In this document: positions 6,072-34,727 of the stretch, in pieces
How the letters are laid out: each line of letters opens with the position of its first letter
Numbering within the stretch: the first letter of the stretch is position 1
Source: a virus
DNA length: 39,320 bases
IMG/VR virus record: IMGVR_UViG_3300020169_000039
Coordinates: 1-39,320 of that record
Strand: one strand, 5' to 3'
Made by a program: the position numbers and the translations under genes
The notes under the pieces: generated by a model
The model's database searches: none
What the model saw: only the letters and a program-made list of their open reading frames with translations
What the model was told of the DNA's origin: nothing

Positions 6072-6928
6072 TTTCGATTGTAGGCATTGGCAATGCTGGT
6101 TCTGCGATCGCCGAAAAGTTCAAGTCGCAGAGTGGAAACTATAAGATATACCAACTTAACAACAAGTGCGGTAAGTCTAAATATTGTTATAAGTTAAAAG
6201 AATTTGACACACCCGAAGAATACGAAAAGAACATCCCGGATCTCACGACTTTCTTTAAAGACATCACAGACAAGGTTCAAGTGTTCATAGTTGGCTCGTC
6301 GAAGAGTTCGAATTATGCTTTGGGCATCTTGGAGCAAATAAGAGATAAAGAGTTAGAAATATTTTATGTGAAACCGGATACCGAACTGCTAACAGGGGTA
6401 CCCAAGTTACTGGAAAATATGACTTATGGCGTCTTGCAACAATATGCCAGATCGGCACTTTTTGCTTCGCTGACTATATTTTCGAACTATGATATAGAGA
6501 AAAACATGCCCAATATCTCAATTAAGAATTACTTTGATACTCTTAACCAGACTATTTTCTCTTCTGTACATTATCTCAATTTTTTCACCCATACGGAGCC
6601 AGAGATAGGACAAGTTTCGCGCCCCTCACCGGTGAATAGGATCCGCACTATTGGTATGCTAGATTTAAAAAATATGTCAGAAAAGTGGCTCTTCAGCCTT
6701 GACAGCCCGCGAGAAACATGCTATTATATATGCATAAATCAAGAAAGACTAGAGAAAGAGTCGGGGCTGCATAAACAATTGGTGGATATGCTCAAGGAGA
6801 AGCCTCGCAATGCTTATAGAAAAATCTCATATGGTATATGGGAGACACATTTACAAGACTTTGGGTTCTGCGTTACCCACACCAACGCAATACAACAAAA
6901 TACCCTTGACAAGCTAGAGCAAGGGTGA
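6068..6928 (+). CDS. Rossmann-like protein, possibly a divergent tubulin/FtsZ relative
   Basis: A 286-residue protein overlapping the polymerase gene by 4 bases (ATGA). It begins with a beta strand and Gly-rich turn, 'SIVGIGNAGSAIAEKF', which fits a nucleotide-binding fold. The order of elements is FtsZ-like: the first Gly loop, a strand plus loop near residues 75-85 ('VFIVGSSKSSN') where FtsZ has its GGGTGTG signature, then 'YVKP' where FtsZ has V-x-K-P, a strand 'LTIFSNYD' where FtsZ has 'IVIPND', and a helix 'YFDTLNQTIF'. The tubulin signature itself is missing, so GTP binding is doubtful. The alternative is an unrelated dinucleotide-binding protein. The family call is inference from layout only. 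Confidence 0.45.
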   Translation: MISIVGIGNAGSAIAEKFKSQSGNYKIYQLNNKCGKSKYCYKLKEFDTPEEYEKNIPDLTTFFKDITDKVQVFIVGSSKSSNYALGILEQIRDKELEIFYVKPDTELLTGVPKLLENMTYGVLQQYARSALFASLTIFSNYDIEKNMPNISIKNYFDTLNQTIFSSVHYLNFFTHTEPEIGQVSRPSPVNRIRTIGMLDLKNMSEKWLFSLDSPRETCYYICINQERLEKESGLHKQLVDMLKEKPRNAYRKISYGIWETHLQDFGFCVTHTNAIQQNTLDKLEQG

Positions 6929-6934
6929 TACATT
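6906..6934 (+). promoter_or_regulatory. Sigma70-type promoter for the SSB gene
   Basis: TTGACA (6906-6911), a 17-base spacer and TACATT (6929-6934). It lies in the last codons of the preceding gene, and the start point would be near 6941, about 50 bases before the SSB start. The -35 is perfect and the -10 is one base off at two positions. Confidence 0.6.
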
Positions 6935-6936
6935 AG

Positions 6937-6957
6937 ATATCGAGGAAAGCTCGATAT
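6937..6957 (+). promoter_or_regulatory. Hairpin in the SSB leader, overlapping the start point
   Basis: ATATCGAG (6937-6944) and CTCGATAT (6950-6957) form a perfect 8-bp inverted repeat with loop GAAAG. It has no following T-run, so it is not a standard terminator. It lies just after the -10 box of the SSB promoter. Read-through RNA would carry the full stem, whereas RNA started near 6941 would lack half of its left arm. It could also be a protein-binding operator. Confidence 0.5.
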
Positions 6958-6990: not shown

Positions 6991-7758
6991 ATGTCAATCA
7001 ATATGGAACTAATGAGAAAGAAGCTGGCTTCACTTCGCGGTGAGGGAGGCAATGAAAACTCAGTGTGGTTTAAGCCACAAGAAGGCGAACAAGTGGTTCG
7101 CATCGTCCCCACTGCAGATGGGGATCCGCTTAAGGAAATGTTTTTCCACTATAATGTGGGAGATCACAAGGGCGGCATCGTATGCCCCAAGCGTAACTTC
7201 GGTGAACGCTGCCCTGTCTGCGAATTCGCATCCTCCGTGTGGAAGGATGGAGTAGAAACTAACGACGAGGAAGCAAAGAAGCTTGCCAAGTCATTGTTTG
7301 TGCGCGCTCGATACTTCTCGCCCGTAGTACTACGTGGCTCAGAAGAGGAAGGAATTAAATTTTATGGCTACGGAAAGCGCGCCTATGAACTTCTTTTGGG
7401 ATACATTTTGGATCCCGAATACGGTGACATCACCGACACCTTGGAAGGTACCGATATTACCTTAGTGTATACTAAGCCCACATCCCCCGGTGCCTATCCT
7501 CAAACAAGCCTTAAGATGAGAAGGAATACTTCGACTCTACTTGAGGATCAGGAAGCTATCCCCGCCCTCCTTGATCGTATGCCCGATTTTGATAGCCTCT
7601 TTGAGCGACTTTCCCCCGAGGAAATTGACGCGATTCTTGATGAGCAACTTGCTGGTGATCTTAGTGCGGAAACACGATCATCGGAGACTGGGCGTTATAA
7701 TGTTGACACTCAAAACCCAGTCGACAAGGCATTTGATGAGCTGATGGCCACCAAGTAG
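6991..7758 (+). CDS. Single-stranded DNA-binding protein, T4 gp32-like
   Basis: A 255-residue protein of the size and layout of phage T4 gp32. It coats ssDNA during replication and recombination. The zinc site is visible as H53-x11-C65-x8-C74-x2-C77, matching the T4 gp32 ligands H64, C77, C87 and C90 in order and near spacing. The N-terminal 20 residues are basic and helical, as expected for the cooperativity arm, and the C-terminal third is acidic ('SPEEIDAILDEQ'), as expected for the partner-binding tail. The start ATG has a good AAGGAG site 9 bases upstream. It has its own promoter and a leader hairpin. UvsX and helicase genes follow, as expected for a T4-like replisome. Confidence 0.88.
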   Translation: MSINMELMRKKLASLRGEGGNENSVWFKPQEGEQVVRIVPTADGDPLKEMFFHYNVGDHKGGIVCPKRNFGERCPVCEFASSVWKDGVETNDEEAKKLAKSLFVRARYFSPVVLRGSEEEGIKFYGYGKRAYELLLGYILDPEYGDITDTLEGTDITLVYTKPTSPGAYPQTSLKMRRNTSTLLEDQEAIPALLDRMPDFDSLFERLSPEEIDAILDEQLAGDLSAETRSSETGRYNVDTQNPVDKAFDELMATK

Positions 7759-7771
7759 CGGGCTTGTTTAA

Positions 7772-7809
7772 GCCGCTGGCAGATCGGCTGTAAGTAAATA
7801 GTCTGCCGC
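7772..7809 (+). promoter_or_regulatory. Pseudoknot-like leader RNA element, copy 1
   Basis: First of three related elements. GCCG (7772-7775) can pair with CGGC (7785-7788), and GGCAGA (7778-7783) with TCTGCC (7802-7807). The two stems interleave, which is an H-type pseudoknot, with a 13-nt A-rich third loop. A competing hairpin (GGCTT 7761-7765 with AAGCC 7770-7774) would use up the first GCC, so two folds are possible. It sits between the SSB stop and the ribosome site of the Thr-rich gene. Confidence 0.65.
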
Positions 7810-7838
7810 AATTTTCTATAAACAAAAAGGAGAATGTT

Positions 7839-8126
7839 ATGGAATGGTTAAAATCCCTATGGGCTAAATGGAAGGTTCAAGTAAGCGTAGTAGGAGGCGT
7901 TCTCGTTATCGCTACTGCATACGGTACCTGCAATGTAGATCCCACTACGGTTTCTGACAACAGCGACAACACTACCAGCACAATTGTGACTGAGACAGTA
8001 GAGGTGTCTGCTACCACGACAGAGACAACTGGAGAGACAACAACCACCGGTGATACAACTACTGGCGACACCACTACAACTGGTGACACCACGGAAACTA
8101 CCACCACAACGACTACAACTGAGTAG
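7839..8126 (+). CDS. Small membrane-anchored Thr-rich protein
   Basis: A 95-residue protein with a good AAGGAG site. Residues 1-12 are Trp/Lys-rich, residues about 13-30 form one hydrophobic segment ('VQVSVVGGVLVIATAY') followed by a Cys, and the rest is low-complexity Thr/Glu/Gly/Asp with 'TTTGDTTTGDTT' repeats. It is most likely an inner-membrane protein with an extended tail outside the cytoplasm. The Cys context (Y-G-T-C) is a poor lipobox. Its leader carries pseudoknot copy 1 and its trailer copy 2. The repeat makes long antisense frames that are not genes. Function unknown. A cell-surface or superinfection role is only a guess. Confidence 0.7.
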   Translation: MEWLKSLWAKWKVQVSVVGGVLVIATAYGTCNVDPTTVSDNSDNTTSTIVTETVEVSATTTETTGETTTTGDTTTGDTTTTGDTTETTTTTTTTE

Positions 8127-8134
8127 CAAAAAAA

Positions 8135-8165
8135 GCCGCTGGCACACCGGTAAAAAGTGTGCCGC
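8135..8165 (+). promoter_or_regulatory. Pseudoknot-like leader RNA element, copy 2
   Basis: GCCG (8135-8138) can pair with CGGT (8148-8151, one G-U), interleaved with a perfect 7-bp stem GGCACAC (8141-8147) and GTGTGCC (8157-8163), third loop AAAAA. It ends a few bases before AAGGAG (8170-8175) of the lipoprotein gene. A 32-base stretch (8134-8165) is identical to copy 3. Confidence 0.7.
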
Positions 8166-8180
8166 ATTTAAGGAGACAAA

Positions 8181-8291
8181 ATGAGACTCGTTCTACCAGT
8201 CCTTGCCGCGACCCTATTAATGGGTTGTGGGGATAAGGATGAAGACACGGCGGCGGATACCGCTAACTCTGCAGACACAGCAGCAGAGTAA
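8181..8291 (+). CDS. Tiny lipoprotein (36 residues)
   Basis: ATG with AAGGAG 6 bases upstream. The protein begins 'MRLVLPVLAATLLMGCGDKD', a short signal peptide ending in the lipobox L-M-G-C, so C16 should be lipidated by the host pathway. The remaining 20 residues are Asp/Thr/Ala repeats ('DTAADTANSADTAAE'). A Gly-Asp after the Cys is compatible with inner-membrane retention in Gram-negatives if Asp at +2 applies, but here +2 is Gly. The DT-rich tail resembles the linker of many deltaproteobacterial lipoproteins. It lies between pseudoknot copies 2 and 3. Possible roles are superinfection exclusion or a spanin-like part; neither is shown. Confidence 0.72.
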   Translation: MRLVLPVLAATLLMGCGDKDEDTAADTANSADTAAE

Positions 8292-8299
8292 TAAAACCA

Positions 8300-8330
8300 G
8301 CCGCTGGCACACCGGTAAAAAGTGTGCCGC
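8300..8330 (+). promoter_or_regulatory. Pseudoknot-like leader RNA element, copy 3
   Basis: GCCG (8300-8303) can pair with CGGT (8313-8316), interleaved with GGCACAC (8306-8312) and GTGTGCC (8322-8328), third loop AAAAA. It is identical to copy 2 over 32 bases and lies just before the AAGGAGG site of the recombinase gene. Confidence 0.7.
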
Positions 8331-8353
8331 TATTTACGCCTTAAGGAGGGCAC

Positions 8354-9502
8354 ATGGCAAAAAAAGCCACAAACAAAGCGGGTCGCGTAGCGATGCAAGA
8401 TTTGCTAAAACTAGTTAACAAGAAAGCCGGCAGAAATGTCGCACATAATCTCACAGGAGATAACCCCACATCCGTTAAGGAGTGGATTCCCACTGGCTCG
8501 CGATGGCTAGACTCAATTATCTGCAAAGGACAAGTGGCAGGAATTCCAGTAGGAAAGGTAACTGAGATCGCCGGACTGGAATCAACCGGCAAGTCGTACA
8601 TGGCTGCGCAAATCGCCGCCAATGCCCAAAAACAAGGCAAGCTGGTAGTTTATTTCGATTCGGAATCTGCCATTGATCCCACCTTTTTAGAGCGGACTGG
8701 CTGCGACTTAGATCGCCTAATGTATGTTCAGGCATCCTCTGTAGAGTTTGTTTTAGAAACAATTGAGGAGTTACTTGGCGCCGCTGAAGATCAGATGGTA
8801 TTTGTCTGGGACTCCCTCGCCTTCACGCCCTCGGTATCTGATGTTGAGGGCGACTTCAATCCGCAGTCGTCAATGGCAGTAAAAGCCCGTATTCTTGCAA
8901 AGGGAATGTCGAAGCTGACAATCCCCATTGCGGATCGACAAGCAACCCTGATTGTTTTGAACCAGCTTAAGACTAATATCCCTCAAGGGCCGAACGCTAG
9001 AATTGTAGCAATGACAACGCCATATACTACCCCTGGTGGCAAAGCGATGCACTACTCTTATTCGCTGAGAATTTGGCTGACAGGTAGAAAGGCTAAGTCA
9101 TCTTTTATTGAAGATAACAAAGGTTTCCGTATTGGCTCTGAAGTTAAGGTGAAGCTGGAGAAATCTCGTTTCGGAACTCAGGGAAGATCATGCGCATTCC
9201 GAATTCTATGGGGTACTGAAGAGATTGGTATCCGTGATGAGGAGAGTTGGTTTGATGCAATCAAAGGTTGCGAAAGTCTCACTTCTGCCGGTGCATGGTA
9301 TACTTTGACAACGCCAGACGGGTACACAAAGAAATTTCAGCCATCAAAATGGACTGATCTGGTGACGTCTGATGAAGAGTTCCGTTCGAAAGTGATTAAA
9401 ATCATGGACGAGGAGATTGTTCAGAAGTTTGAAAAGAGAGAGGGGGATGCCTCCAGTTTCTATGAAGATCAAGAGGACTTGACTGTCCCAGTAAAAGAAT
9501 GA
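8354..9502 (+). CDS. uvsX: UvsX/RecA-family recombinase
   Basis: A 382-residue strand-exchange ATPase that forms filaments on ssDNA and pairs it with homologous duplex. Walker A is 'GLESTGKS' (residues 74-81), Walker B is 'MVFVWDSLAF' with D153, and a later 'VLNQLKTNI' fits the loop region of the family. 'IPTGSRWLDSII' before Walker A is the usual RecA/UvsX opening. The length is close to T4 UvsX (about 390). The start has a strong AAGGAGG site and pseudoknot copy 3 directly upstream, so translation may be controlled. The pairing with gp32-like SSB is typical of T4-like recombination-dependent replication. Confidence 0.9.
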   Translation: MAKKATNKAGRVAMQDLLKLVNKKAGRNVAHNLTGDNPTSVKEWIPTGSRWLDSIICKGQVAGIPVGKVTEIAGLESTGKSYMAAQIAANAQKQGKLVVYFDSESAIDPTFLERTGCDLDRLMYVQASSVEFVLETIEELLGAAEDQMVFVWDSLAFTPSVSDVEGDFNPQSSMAVKARILAKGMSKLTIPIADRQATLIVLNQLKTNIPQGPNARIVAMTTPYTTPGGKAMHYSYSLRIWLTGRKAKSSFIEDNKGFRIGSEVKVKLEKSRFGTQGRSCAFRILWGTEEIGIRDEESWFDAIKGCESLTSAGAWYTLTTPDGYTKKFQPSKWTDLVTSDEEFRSKVIKIMDEEIVQKFEKREGDASSFYEDQEDLTVPVKE

Positions 9503-11646: not shown

Positions 11647-11674
11647 TTGACATGCTGCTTGAATATGTTATAAT
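11647..11674 (+). promoter_or_regulatory. Sigma70-type promoter for the helicase operon
   Basis: TTGACA (11647-11652), 16-base spacer, TATAAT (11669-11674). The start codon follows 22 bases later behind GAGGGGTG. Confidence 0.8.
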
Positions 11675-16813: not shown

Positions 16814-16842
16814 TTGACACTTTAGCTGAATTCAGTTATAAT
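16814..16842 (+). promoter_or_regulatory. Consensus sigma70 promoter for the secreted-protein gene
   Basis: TTGACA (16814-16819), 17-base spacer, TATAAT (16837-16842), a perfect match right after the metzincin stop. TTAGGAG and the ATG at 16865 follow. Confidence 0.88.
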
Positions 16843-30344: not shown

Positions 30345-30373
30345 TTGACATTAGCTTTATAATGAGATATAAT
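30345..30373 (+). promoter_or_regulatory. Consensus sigma70 promoter, interlocked with a terminator
   Basis: TTGACA (30345-30350), 17-base spacer, TATAAT (30368-30373), directly after the stop of the acidic protein gene. The expected start point, about 30380, falls at the loop of the terminator hairpin that follows. Confidence 0.88.
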
Positions 30374-30399
30374 AACCACCTTACGGTGGTTATTTTTTT
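30371..30399 (+). terminator. Rho-independent terminator overlapping the promoter
   Basis: AATAACCACC (30371-30380), loop TTAC and GGTGGTTATT (30385-30394) form a perfect 10-bp stem, followed by a T-run (30393-30399). It should end transcription from the upstream gene. RNA started at the overlapping promoter would lack the left arm and should not be terminated. Confidence 0.88.
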
Positions 30400-33091: not shown

Positions 33092-33120
33092 TTGACATTT
33101 CTTTGATATGCGATTATAAT
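33092..33120 (+). promoter_or_regulatory. Consensus sigma70 promoter for groEL
   Basis: TTGACA (33092-33097), 17-base spacer, TATAAT (33115-33120). The ATG at 33144 follows 23 bases later with a CTGAGGT ribosome site. The chaperonin gene is thus separately transcribed. Confidence 0.9.
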
Positions 33121-33143: not shown

Positions 33144-34727
33144 ATGAGTCGAGAGTACGACGATAATCAATCACTACAACAAAAAATAATGAAGGGCGTG
33201 AATGTGCTAGCGGACAATGTAGCATCAACGCTTGGGCCGCGTGGTAGAAATGTACTGCTACAGGAAAAGAATAAAGATCCTTTTATTACAAAGGATGGAG
33301 TTACTGTCGCTCACTTTGTGGCACTAGACGATCCCATGGAGAATGCTGCAGCACAAATTATAAAGCAGGCTGCAGTTGAGACGAACAATAATGCCGGCGA
33401 TGGCACAACAACAGCTACTGTTCTTGCGCGCGCTATTTTATCGGAAGCGCAAAGATATATTGCTTCGGGGATTTCGCCCATTGAGCTGCAACGCGGCATC
33501 CTTTCGACAGTCAAGGAGATTACCAATAATCTGTCAGAGCTTTCGCTCCCTGTAACTAGTTTGGATGATATCCGCCACATTGCCACCATCAGTGCCAACA
33601 ACGATCCTTCTATCGGTAGGTTGATATCAATGGCGATCGATAGAGTAGGACAGGATGGCTCAATCACCATTGAGGAATCACGTTCGGTTGAAACGAGTAT
33701 TGATATAGAAGAGGGATTTAAATTAAAATCTGGATATTGTGCCGGCGCTTTCGTTACCGATGAAAGGCGTTCGCTGATGTATCACGATGAGCCTCTGTTA
33801 CTTATTACCGATCAGAAAGTGGACGCAGTTGAGCCTATCATTCCTATTCTAGAGATGGTGGCACGAGAGTCGCGCCCTCTGATTGTTGTAGCTGAAGAAA
33901 TTGAGGGACAGGCTTTGGCAGCTCTCATTATGAACGCAATGCGCGGAACCCTAAAGGTTGCAGCTATCAAGGCTCCCAACTATGGAGATGAGCGTAGAGA
34001 TGCTCTAAGTGATCTGGCGATGTCCACGGGAGCAACATTCGTTTCGCGCTCATCCGGCATGAAGCTATCAGAAGTAAAGCTTGCCGATCTGGGGAGTGCC
34101 AAGTTTATCGAAAGCAACAGGTACGCTACTACCATTGTTGGCGGCGCCGCAAACCATGAAGAATTAGAGACGAGACTTGAATCGCTTAAGAGCGATATCG
34201 AGAACACGGATAATCTATCTGAAGCAGAAAAGATTCAAGATAGAATCACCCGCCTAGTATCGGGAGTGGCAGTTATCAGGGTTGGTGGAACTACGGAAGT
34301 TGAGATGACAGAGAAGAAGCATCGAATTGAAGATGCTCTAGAAGCTGTCCGCGCAGCACAGGATGAGGGTGTTGTGCCAGGAGGGGGCTCTGCACTACTC
34401 CGCGCCGCCCAAAAGATTATAATTGTCACACAGGAAGGGCACGCTGATCAGGTTCATGGCGCCTCCATTGTCAGAAATGCATGTTACGCGCCGGCTCGAC
34501 AAATGGCAGTAAACGCTGGCATATCTCCCGACTTGGTTATTAAACAGATTTTAGATGCTGACGCCGGATTTGGGTGGGATTTCCGAAACGATCGATTGAC
34601 AGATCTTGTTGAGAATGGTATAATAGATCCAGTTAAGGTTACTAAGACAGCATTGCAAAATGCCGCATCTGCAGCAGGAACCCTGATGACGACTAATTAT
34701 GGAATTATTCAAACGGGAGATAAGTAA
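33144..34727 (+). CDS. groEL: GroEL-type chaperonin (Cpn60)
   Basis: A 527-residue group I chaperonin that folds proteins in a double ring with ATP. 'TLGPRGRNVLL' and 'TKDGVTVA' open it, 'AGDGTTTATVLAR' is the ATP site (including the catalytic Asp), 'EEGFKLKSGY' starts the apical domain and 'EGVVPGGGSALLRA' the C-terminal equatorial part. It is near the usual 545 but lacks the flexible GGM tail. Its own sigma70 promoter gives independent control. With the GroES-like protein at 15048 it could form a phage-specific folding chamber, perhaps for virion proteins; whether it mixes with host GroEL is unknown. Confidence 0.93.
   Translation: MSREYDDNQSLQQKIMKGVNVLADNVASTLGPRGRNVLLQEKNKDPFITKDGVTVAHFVALDDPMENAAAQIIKQAAVETNNNAGDGTTTATVLARAILSEAQRYIASGISPIELQRGILSTVKEITNNLSELSLPVTSLDDIRHIATISANNDPSIGRLISMAIDRVGQDGSITIEESRSVETSIDIEEGFKLKSGYCAGAFVTDERRSLMYHDEPLLLITDQKVDAVEPIIPILEMVARESRPLIVVAEEIEGQALAALIMNAMRGTLKVAAIKAPNYGDERRDALSDLAMSTGATFVSRSSGMKLSEVKLADLGSAKFIESNRYATTIVGGAANHEELETRLESLKSDIENTDNLSEAEKIQDRITRLVSGVAVIRVGGTTEVEMTEKKHRIEDALEAVRAAQDEGVVPGGGSALLRAAQKIIIVTQEGHADQVHGASIVRNACYAPARQMAVNAGISPDLVIKQILDADAGFGWDFRNDRLTDLVENGIIDPVKVTKTALQNAASAAGTLMTTNYGIIQTGDK
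34596..34624 (+). promoter_or_regulatory. Consensus sigma70 promoter inside the end of groEL
   Basis: TTGACA (34596-34601), 17-base spacer, TATAAT (34619-34624), within the last 45 codons of groEL. It could drive the small-gene operon starting at 34729. Confidence 0.75.

Follow-up and report, generated by a model that had tools for sequence, protein, structure and literature searches.

A predicted H-type pseudoknot RNA family 3' of single-stranded DNA-binding protein and capsid genes in phage genomes

Our analysis of a 39,320-nt viral sequence (IMG/VR record IMGVR_UViG_3300020169_000039, hereafter the window) confirmed that three genuine H-type pseudoknots lie in the gaps separating the genes for a gp32-like single-stranded DNA-binding protein (SSB), a Thr-rich small protein, a lipoprotein, and a UvsX-like recombinase, and comparative searches indicate that they belong to a real, conserved family of sense-strand RNA pseudoknots found in hundreds of phage sequences, mostly just past the stop of an SSB gene. 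Judged from sequence, a role of this knot as a 3'-end element, acting as a pseudoknotted leaky terminator and/or as a 3' stabilizer of the mRNA of the preceding gene, has a little better than an even chance of being correct. As a structured RNA, the knot appears to be common in tailed-phage genomes, and its consensus is simple enough for searches of any virome. Its association with capsid genes and with SSB families unrelated to one another makes testable the old question of how phages fix very high SSB and capsid amounts relative to neighboring genes without separate promoters, and also whether a pseudoknot can be a bacterial 3'-end signal.

Three pseudoknots between the SSB and UvsX genes

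An earlier note on this DNA had described three elements on the + strand, one in each of these gaps and each ahead of a ribosome site, folding as an H-type pseudoknot with interleaved stems and an A-rich third loop; our searches bear out both the places and the fold (Table 1). The knot pattern gave exactly three matches in the 39-kb window against 0.00 in 100 dinucleotide-preserving shuffles, and a covariance model trained on 83 copies (two of them from the window, almost all from other viruses) picked the same three, the next-best match having an E-value of 0.08; neither search of the 39 kb gave a fourth copy. Our coordinates run from S1a to the end of S2b; those of the earlier note add the following GC. 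An AGGAG ribosome site precedes each gene downstream of a knot.

Table 1. Positions of the pseudoknots, their parts, and the neighboring genes and promoter in the window
Feature	Positions	Strand	Remarks
Sigma70-like promoter ahead of SSB	6906..6934	+	TTGACA-17-TACATT; 10/12, TG before -10; consensus match only
gp32-like SSB gene	6991..7758	+	phrog_1192, E 1.6e-24; stop 13 nt before copy 1
Pseudoknot copy 1	7772..7807	+	position read; pattern match; covariance model E 5e-10 (5.1e-10)
Copy 1 S1	7772-7775/7785-7788	+	GCCG/CGGC; extendable to AGCCG/CGGCU with 7771/7789
Copy 1 L1	7776-7777	+	CU
Copy 1 S2	7778-7784/7801-7807	+	GGCAGAU/GUCUGCC
Copy 1 L3	7790-7800	+	A-rich
U-tract 3' of copy 1	7808..7817	+	GCAATTTTCT
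Thr-rich membrane-anchored small protein	7839..8126	+	stop 8 nt before copy 2
Pseudoknot copy 2	8135..8163	+	pattern match; covariance model E 2.6e-11
Copy 2 S1	8135-8138/8148-8151	+	GCCG/CGGU
Copy 2 L1	8139-8140	+	
Copy 2 S2	8141-8147/8157-8163	+	GGCACAC/GUGUGCC
Copy 2 L3	8152-8156	+	AAAAA
Short U-tract 3' of copy 2	8164..8169	+	GCATTT
36-aa lipoprotein	8181..8291	+	lipobox LMGC; stop 8 nt before copy 3
Pseudoknot copy 3	8300..8328	+	core identical to copy 2; covariance model E 3.4e-11
Copy 3 S1	8300-8303/8313-8316	+	
Copy 3 S2	8306-8312/8322-8328	+	
Copy 3 L3	8317-8321	+	
Short U-rich tract 3' of copy 3	8329..8336	+	GCTATTTA
UvsX-like recombinase	8354..9502	+	phrog_97, E 2e-62; first large gene past copy 3

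Folded as nested structures, the copies form the S2 hairpin with GC/GC below a bulged U and nothing more (-12.4 to -13.4 kcal/mol); at 7 bp plus GC/GC, this is a GC-rich hairpin of the kind expected in an intrinsic terminator, and support for S1 in the window copies rests on comparative evidence. The covariation that the earlier note had read between copy 1 and copies 2 and 3 holds for S2 pair 5 (G-C to C-G) and fails for pair 6, which is the same in all copies, and for pair 7, which passes from U.G to C-G; with only one S2 pair differing on both sides, covariation within the window is therefore weak. Copies 2 and 3 share 88% identity over 50 nt. Regarding the genes themselves, a close relative of the window SSB (L030) matches the Pfam gp32 family (PF08804), the Thr-rich ORF gave no PHROG match and comes after the SSB in many relatives, and a lipoprotein gene of identical length (111 nt) is present in relatives.

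Comparative evidence for a pseudoknot family

The consensus consists of an S1 of 4-7 bp, CU, an S2 of GGCANAC/GUNUGCC, and an A-rich loop, and our collection holds at least 318 viral elements, most of them carried by uncultivated viruses. A scan of SSB relatives listed 80 loci with 49 distinct SSB 3' contexts from the window's clade, and the knot is present in all 49, always 3' of the SSB, which upholds the proposed link of the element to SSB genes. Within the clade, S2 occurs as GGCAGAC/GUCUGCC, GGCACCC/GGGUGCC, GGCACAC/GUGUGCC, and GGCAUCC/GGAUGCC, and S1 grows to 5-6 bp with both sides changing (AGCCG/CGGCU, GACCG/CGGUC, UGCCG/CGGCA, AUGCCG/CGGCAU, GGCCG/CGGCC). Pattern scans of IMG/VR recovered the knot also in many viruses lacking a gp32-like SSB. 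These homologs with compensatory changes in many viruses give the earlier note's statement that the changes keep pairing a much stronger basis than the window copies do, and they clearly contradict the refuting outcome that it had named, a lack of such homologs elsewhere.

The tests that do not presuppose pairing are the scans with S2 fixed and the count of free S2 pairs in viral and bacterial matches. A search that held S2 constant and required a base other than G after CGCUGGCAGACC gave two matches in the whole viral collection, with S1 pairing in neither, whereas leaving the partner base free gave 24 matches; in 16 of these (13 distinct), S1 reaches 4 bp or more through novel sequences, among them CUG/CAG, GGG/CCC, and CGG/CCG. 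When S2 was fixed as GGCAUAC/GUAUGCC and S1 left free, an S1 of at least 4 bp formed in 44 of the 72 distinct matches listed, the chance of three further S1 pairs being about 5% by our own arithmetic. When two S2 pairs were left free, they were complementary in 199 of 202 viral matches versus 19 of 83 bacterial ones (Fisher p 2e-42); pattern matches in bacterial chromosomes are thus mostly chance, with a few strong ones. One of these, in the Methylocaldum sp. 14B chromosome (L266, 1186-1222, - strand), matches the model at 37.7 bits and sits between a sulfate-binding-protein-like gene and another ORF.

Both stems covary in the unbiased scans, S1 passing from CCG/CGG to CUG/CAG, GGG/CCC, or ACG/CGU and S2 changing at three pairs. 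An alignment of 83 sequences shows double changes at seven of seven variable pairs and a covariation score of 0.41, against 0.09 when shuffled and at most 0.07 when slid, counts that lean toward structure because the members were picked as already pairing. The compensatory changes show selection on RNA pairing, and the G.U pairs frequent in both stems, lying on the strand of the genes, indicate that the element acts as RNA rather than DNA. The flanking GC pairs that would prolong S2 toward the U-tract as a conserved terminator stem showed no covariation.

A BLAST search with three consensus sequences yielded few cultured relatives, most clearly Luteibacter phage vB_LflM-Pluto and two records of fecal phages; a further candidate (H62/L368) proved not to be a knot, and pelagiphage and other capsid or SSB homologs (L371-L374, L288) carried none. 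An S1 variant with a bulged A occurs in L399, L401, L406, L430, L436, and their relatives; a tRNA precedes it by about 55 nt, and its AGTTAG/CTAACT flanks might pair as an outer stem. In another virus group (L310, L311, L312, L317, L319, L325, L331, L349, L351), an ordinary terminator-like hairpin, CCTCTTAG..CTAAGAGG, stands about 50 nt before the knot, ahead of an ORF of about 477 aa.

Genomic position and candidate roles

The earlier note had proposed that the element controls the three genes after it, a claim that its genomic position does not support, since the element tracks the stop codon on its upstream side. Across the collection of at least 318 elements, the distance from the upstream stop codon to the knot has its mode at 5-14 nt, whereas what lies downstream varies: a start codon 20-35 nt away with its Shine-Dalgarno sequence and ATG, a tRNA (L002, L124, L139), a promoter, or more than 100 nt without a gene. 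Knots of capsid loci often have no gene start near and can be followed by more than 100 nt without a gene; 75 of 318 collected elements have an upstream gene neighbor only and 21 of 318 have none on either side, genes being called automatically so that downstream distances include some chance ORFs. A tRNA can also lie upstream (L399, L335). A pyrimidine-rich spacer is seen in L397, L377, L335, L352, L424, L483, and L490, where the start codon stands 7-14 nt past the knot with no Shine-Dalgarno sequence.

Our survey of upstream proteins, with one representative for each of 58 clusters, brought up several mutually unrelated ssDNA-binding families, namely gp32 (PF08804), Gp2.5-like/Enc34 (PF10991), bacterial SSB (PF00436), phrog_9002, phrog_44, and phrog_6015, as well as RecT-like annealing proteins; the non-SSB upstream genes encode major capsid proteins (PF19821, phrog_3437), a 156-aa virion protein, and a tail tube protein, and downstream representatives include DNA polymerase, primase, helicase, exonuclease, ligase, and UvsX. 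Acidic-tailed, unclassified proteins of 174-185 aa encoded ahead of the knot (L323, L342, L048, L011) are perhaps a further SSB-like family; the SSB or SSB-like proteins of L302 and L323 had no protein relatives in the phage collection. Contigs of 18-395 kb usually carry one knot outside the window's clade, and inside it one to four clustered 3' of the SSB. In the 80 SSB-UvsX loci, the gap ranges from about 66 nt (knot alone) to more than 4 kb with zero to seven genes, the shortest relatives having a single knot in about 66-73 nt; at least one knot is present in 79 of the 80 gaps, and small genes (Thr-rich, lipoprotein) usually have their own knot, large cargo genes often none. This interval is an insertion hot spot for zero to seven variable genes (e.g. 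L121, L130, L132, L151, L164), with cargo that includes a Dam-like methylase, nuclease-like proteins, and tRNAs.

A U-tract, scored as four or more T within any 6 nt of positions +1 to +14 after the knot, follows all 52 distinct SSB tails (100%) versus 17% of 2127 control gene ends, and is found in 83% of Thr-rich/cargo, 82% of capsid, and 100% of 156-aa virion gene knots. Sigma70-like promoters matching at least 11 of 12 positions within 150 nt downstream occur after 8 of 60 knots without a close gene start, 0 of 92 with one, and 3 of 588 controls. Position, U-tract, and restart promoters together argue for the leaky terminator or 3' stabilizer, for which intergenic stem-loops acting as leaky terminators after a gene needed in excess provide a precedent (PMC9045158). 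Those internal intrinsic terminators, which set operon stoichiometry (PMC9045158), resemble the knot in being intergenic stem-loops with a U-poor tail behind such a gene, although they are ordinary hairpins from Clostridia, whereas the phage element is a conserved, fixed-sequence pseudoknot whose terminating activity is predicted. The U-tract begins about 4 nt past S2, which is late for a textbook terminator; it is short after copies 2 and 3 of the window, and roughly half of the knots outside the clade classed as having gene neighbors on both sides ('other both') lack it. The knot itself may therefore serve stability or binding instead of termination. In the clade, U-tracts of knots without a close gene start are no stronger than those of the others (5.1 vs 5.6 T in 12 nt).

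Under the 3'-end reading, RNA polymerase would transcribe the knot a few nucleotides past the stop codon, the S2 hairpin and U-tract would cause partial termination, and the knotted 3' end would withstand 3'-to-5' decay, S1 and the A-rich L3 probably adding decay resistance or faster folding. The upstream mRNA would thereby be abundant and the downstream genes expressed via readthrough, and three knots in series, behind the SSB, Thr-rich, and lipoprotein genes ahead of UvsX, would produce a stepwise drop in output from an SSB needed in large amounts to a recombinase needed in small amounts. A terminator-only reading leaves one knot per genome and the strong conservation of S1 unexplained. It is possible, if a good deal less probable than the 3'-end role as such, that the knot is a phage-wide module, usually one per genome, which unrelated phages place behind non-homologous ssDNA-binding or capsid genes because a factor conserved in bacteria, be it RNA polymerase, the ribosome, or an exonuclease, recognizes it, either as a cis-acting pseudoknot 3'-end signal or as a trans-acting decoy RNA.

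The autogenous operator suggested in the earlier note, in which the SSB (or a capsid protein) would bind the knot and repress translation as T4 gp32 does, appears unlikely. It would account for the strong link to ssDNA-binding-protein genes and for the A/U-rich stretch often found between the knot and the next ribosome site, and the gross topology is that of the T4 operator (PMC535899). However, the latter sits on the 5' side of gene 32, and UUAAA repeats and the ribosome site of that gene come after it (PMC535899), whereas the knot is 3' of the SSB in every clade member, shows one consensus across non-homologous SSB families and capsid genes, which a gp32-like protein could not specifically account for, and has downstream targets that vary or are missing. 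The analogy is thus weak. Like the T4/RB69 operator, the knot is an H-type pseudoknot carried by the mRNA of an SSB of the gp32 family, but it has its own conserved sequence; where the T4 operator would be, the SSB leader of the window's clade has a simple hairpin. Slightly less probable again is a 3'-UTR-derived small RNA, freed from an abundant phage transcript and titrating a host factor in trans, as the usual single copy per genome, the location on transcripts expected to be abundant, the nearly fixed primary sequence (G-CU-GGCANAC-C), and the U-tract end might suggest; in the window's clade, however, one to four copies are each bound to one gene end, and a cis role accounts better for the position.

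Quite improbable is an element for translation initiation at the downstream gene that replaces or precedes the Shine-Dalgarno sequence: in more than 10 distant loci (including L397, L377, L335, L352, L424), no such sequence precedes a start codon that stands 7-14 nt past the knot, but compact gaps alone explain these short distances, many copies have no nearby gene start (the upstream-only and neither-side elements above), some knots precede a tRNA or promoter, and every downstream gene in the window has its own AGGAG. We give marginally less weight to a recombination boundary, the knots being homology islands that bring gene-plus-knot cassettes into the SSB-UvsX gap. The zero to seven genes of this gap, a knot number equal to genes + 1 in 30 of 80 loci, and the identity of copies 2 and 3 fit such exchange, whereas the compensatory changes indicate selection on RNA pairing and single-copy genomes offer no recombination partner; recombination could be a secondary effect. 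A stimulator of stop-codon readthrough or frameshifting is very improbable, because although a pseudoknot 5-14 nt past a stop resembles viral readthrough signals, the spacing modulo 3 is uniform (75/71/70), the stops are mixed (TAA 100, TAG 85, TGA 31), and the reading frame extends beyond the knot in about half of the cases (103 vs 113).

Known RNAs and promoters

The Mu-gpT-DE RNA is located behind the major head gene of a phage, and the capsid-gene knots are like it in lying past a head gene. PeSL elements of T4-type phages are mobile regulatory cassettes that pair an early promoter with a stem-loop; the knot resembles them as a regulatory stem-loop repeated beside small variable genes, whereas its unit has no promoter and the pseudoknot is under selection. 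The Mu-gpT-DE model (RF03012; catalogued in PMC7657543) gave no match in the window or in 15 knot loci, the control genomes giving none either. STAXI pseudoknots (RF01728) are associated with single-stranded DNA-binding protein and antirestriction genes (PMC2864571) and so share with the knot a link to ssDNA-binding-protein genes; on the other hand, STAXI is a tandem array of two to three pseudoknots over 153 positions with UUCG loops, whereas the window copies are separated by genes and lack UUCG. The Rfam covariance model of STAXI had no match in the window (method control, E 4e-27 in a bacterial genome), and three true STAXI copies (L515, L517, L518) were not matched by the knot's model. 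With Rfam 15 at the gathering threshold, the window and 27 loci gave tRNA matches alone; relaxing the cutoff to E 10 for window positions 7700-8400 brought nothing relevant. The knot thus appears to be absent from the RNA catalogues searched, without an Rfam match, the literature covered being open-access papers.

The SSB leader hairpin (window 6937-6957, ATATCGAG-GAAAG-CTCGATAT) is kept in relatives with five of its eight pairs changed on both sides in a compensatory manner, and may represent either a 5' mRNA hairpin or an operator dyad that overlaps a promoter; L180 and L194 have TTGACT-17-TATACT at its position instead. Perfect TTGACA/TATAAT promoters are also predicted across the window at 11647-11674, 16814-16842, 33092-33120, and 34596-34624, so the virus seems to rely on host sigma70 transcription in many short units. 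At 30345-30394, a further perfect sigma70-like promoter (12/12) abuts a 10-bp hairpin with a T-run (30371-30394), a possible attenuator or dyad operator.
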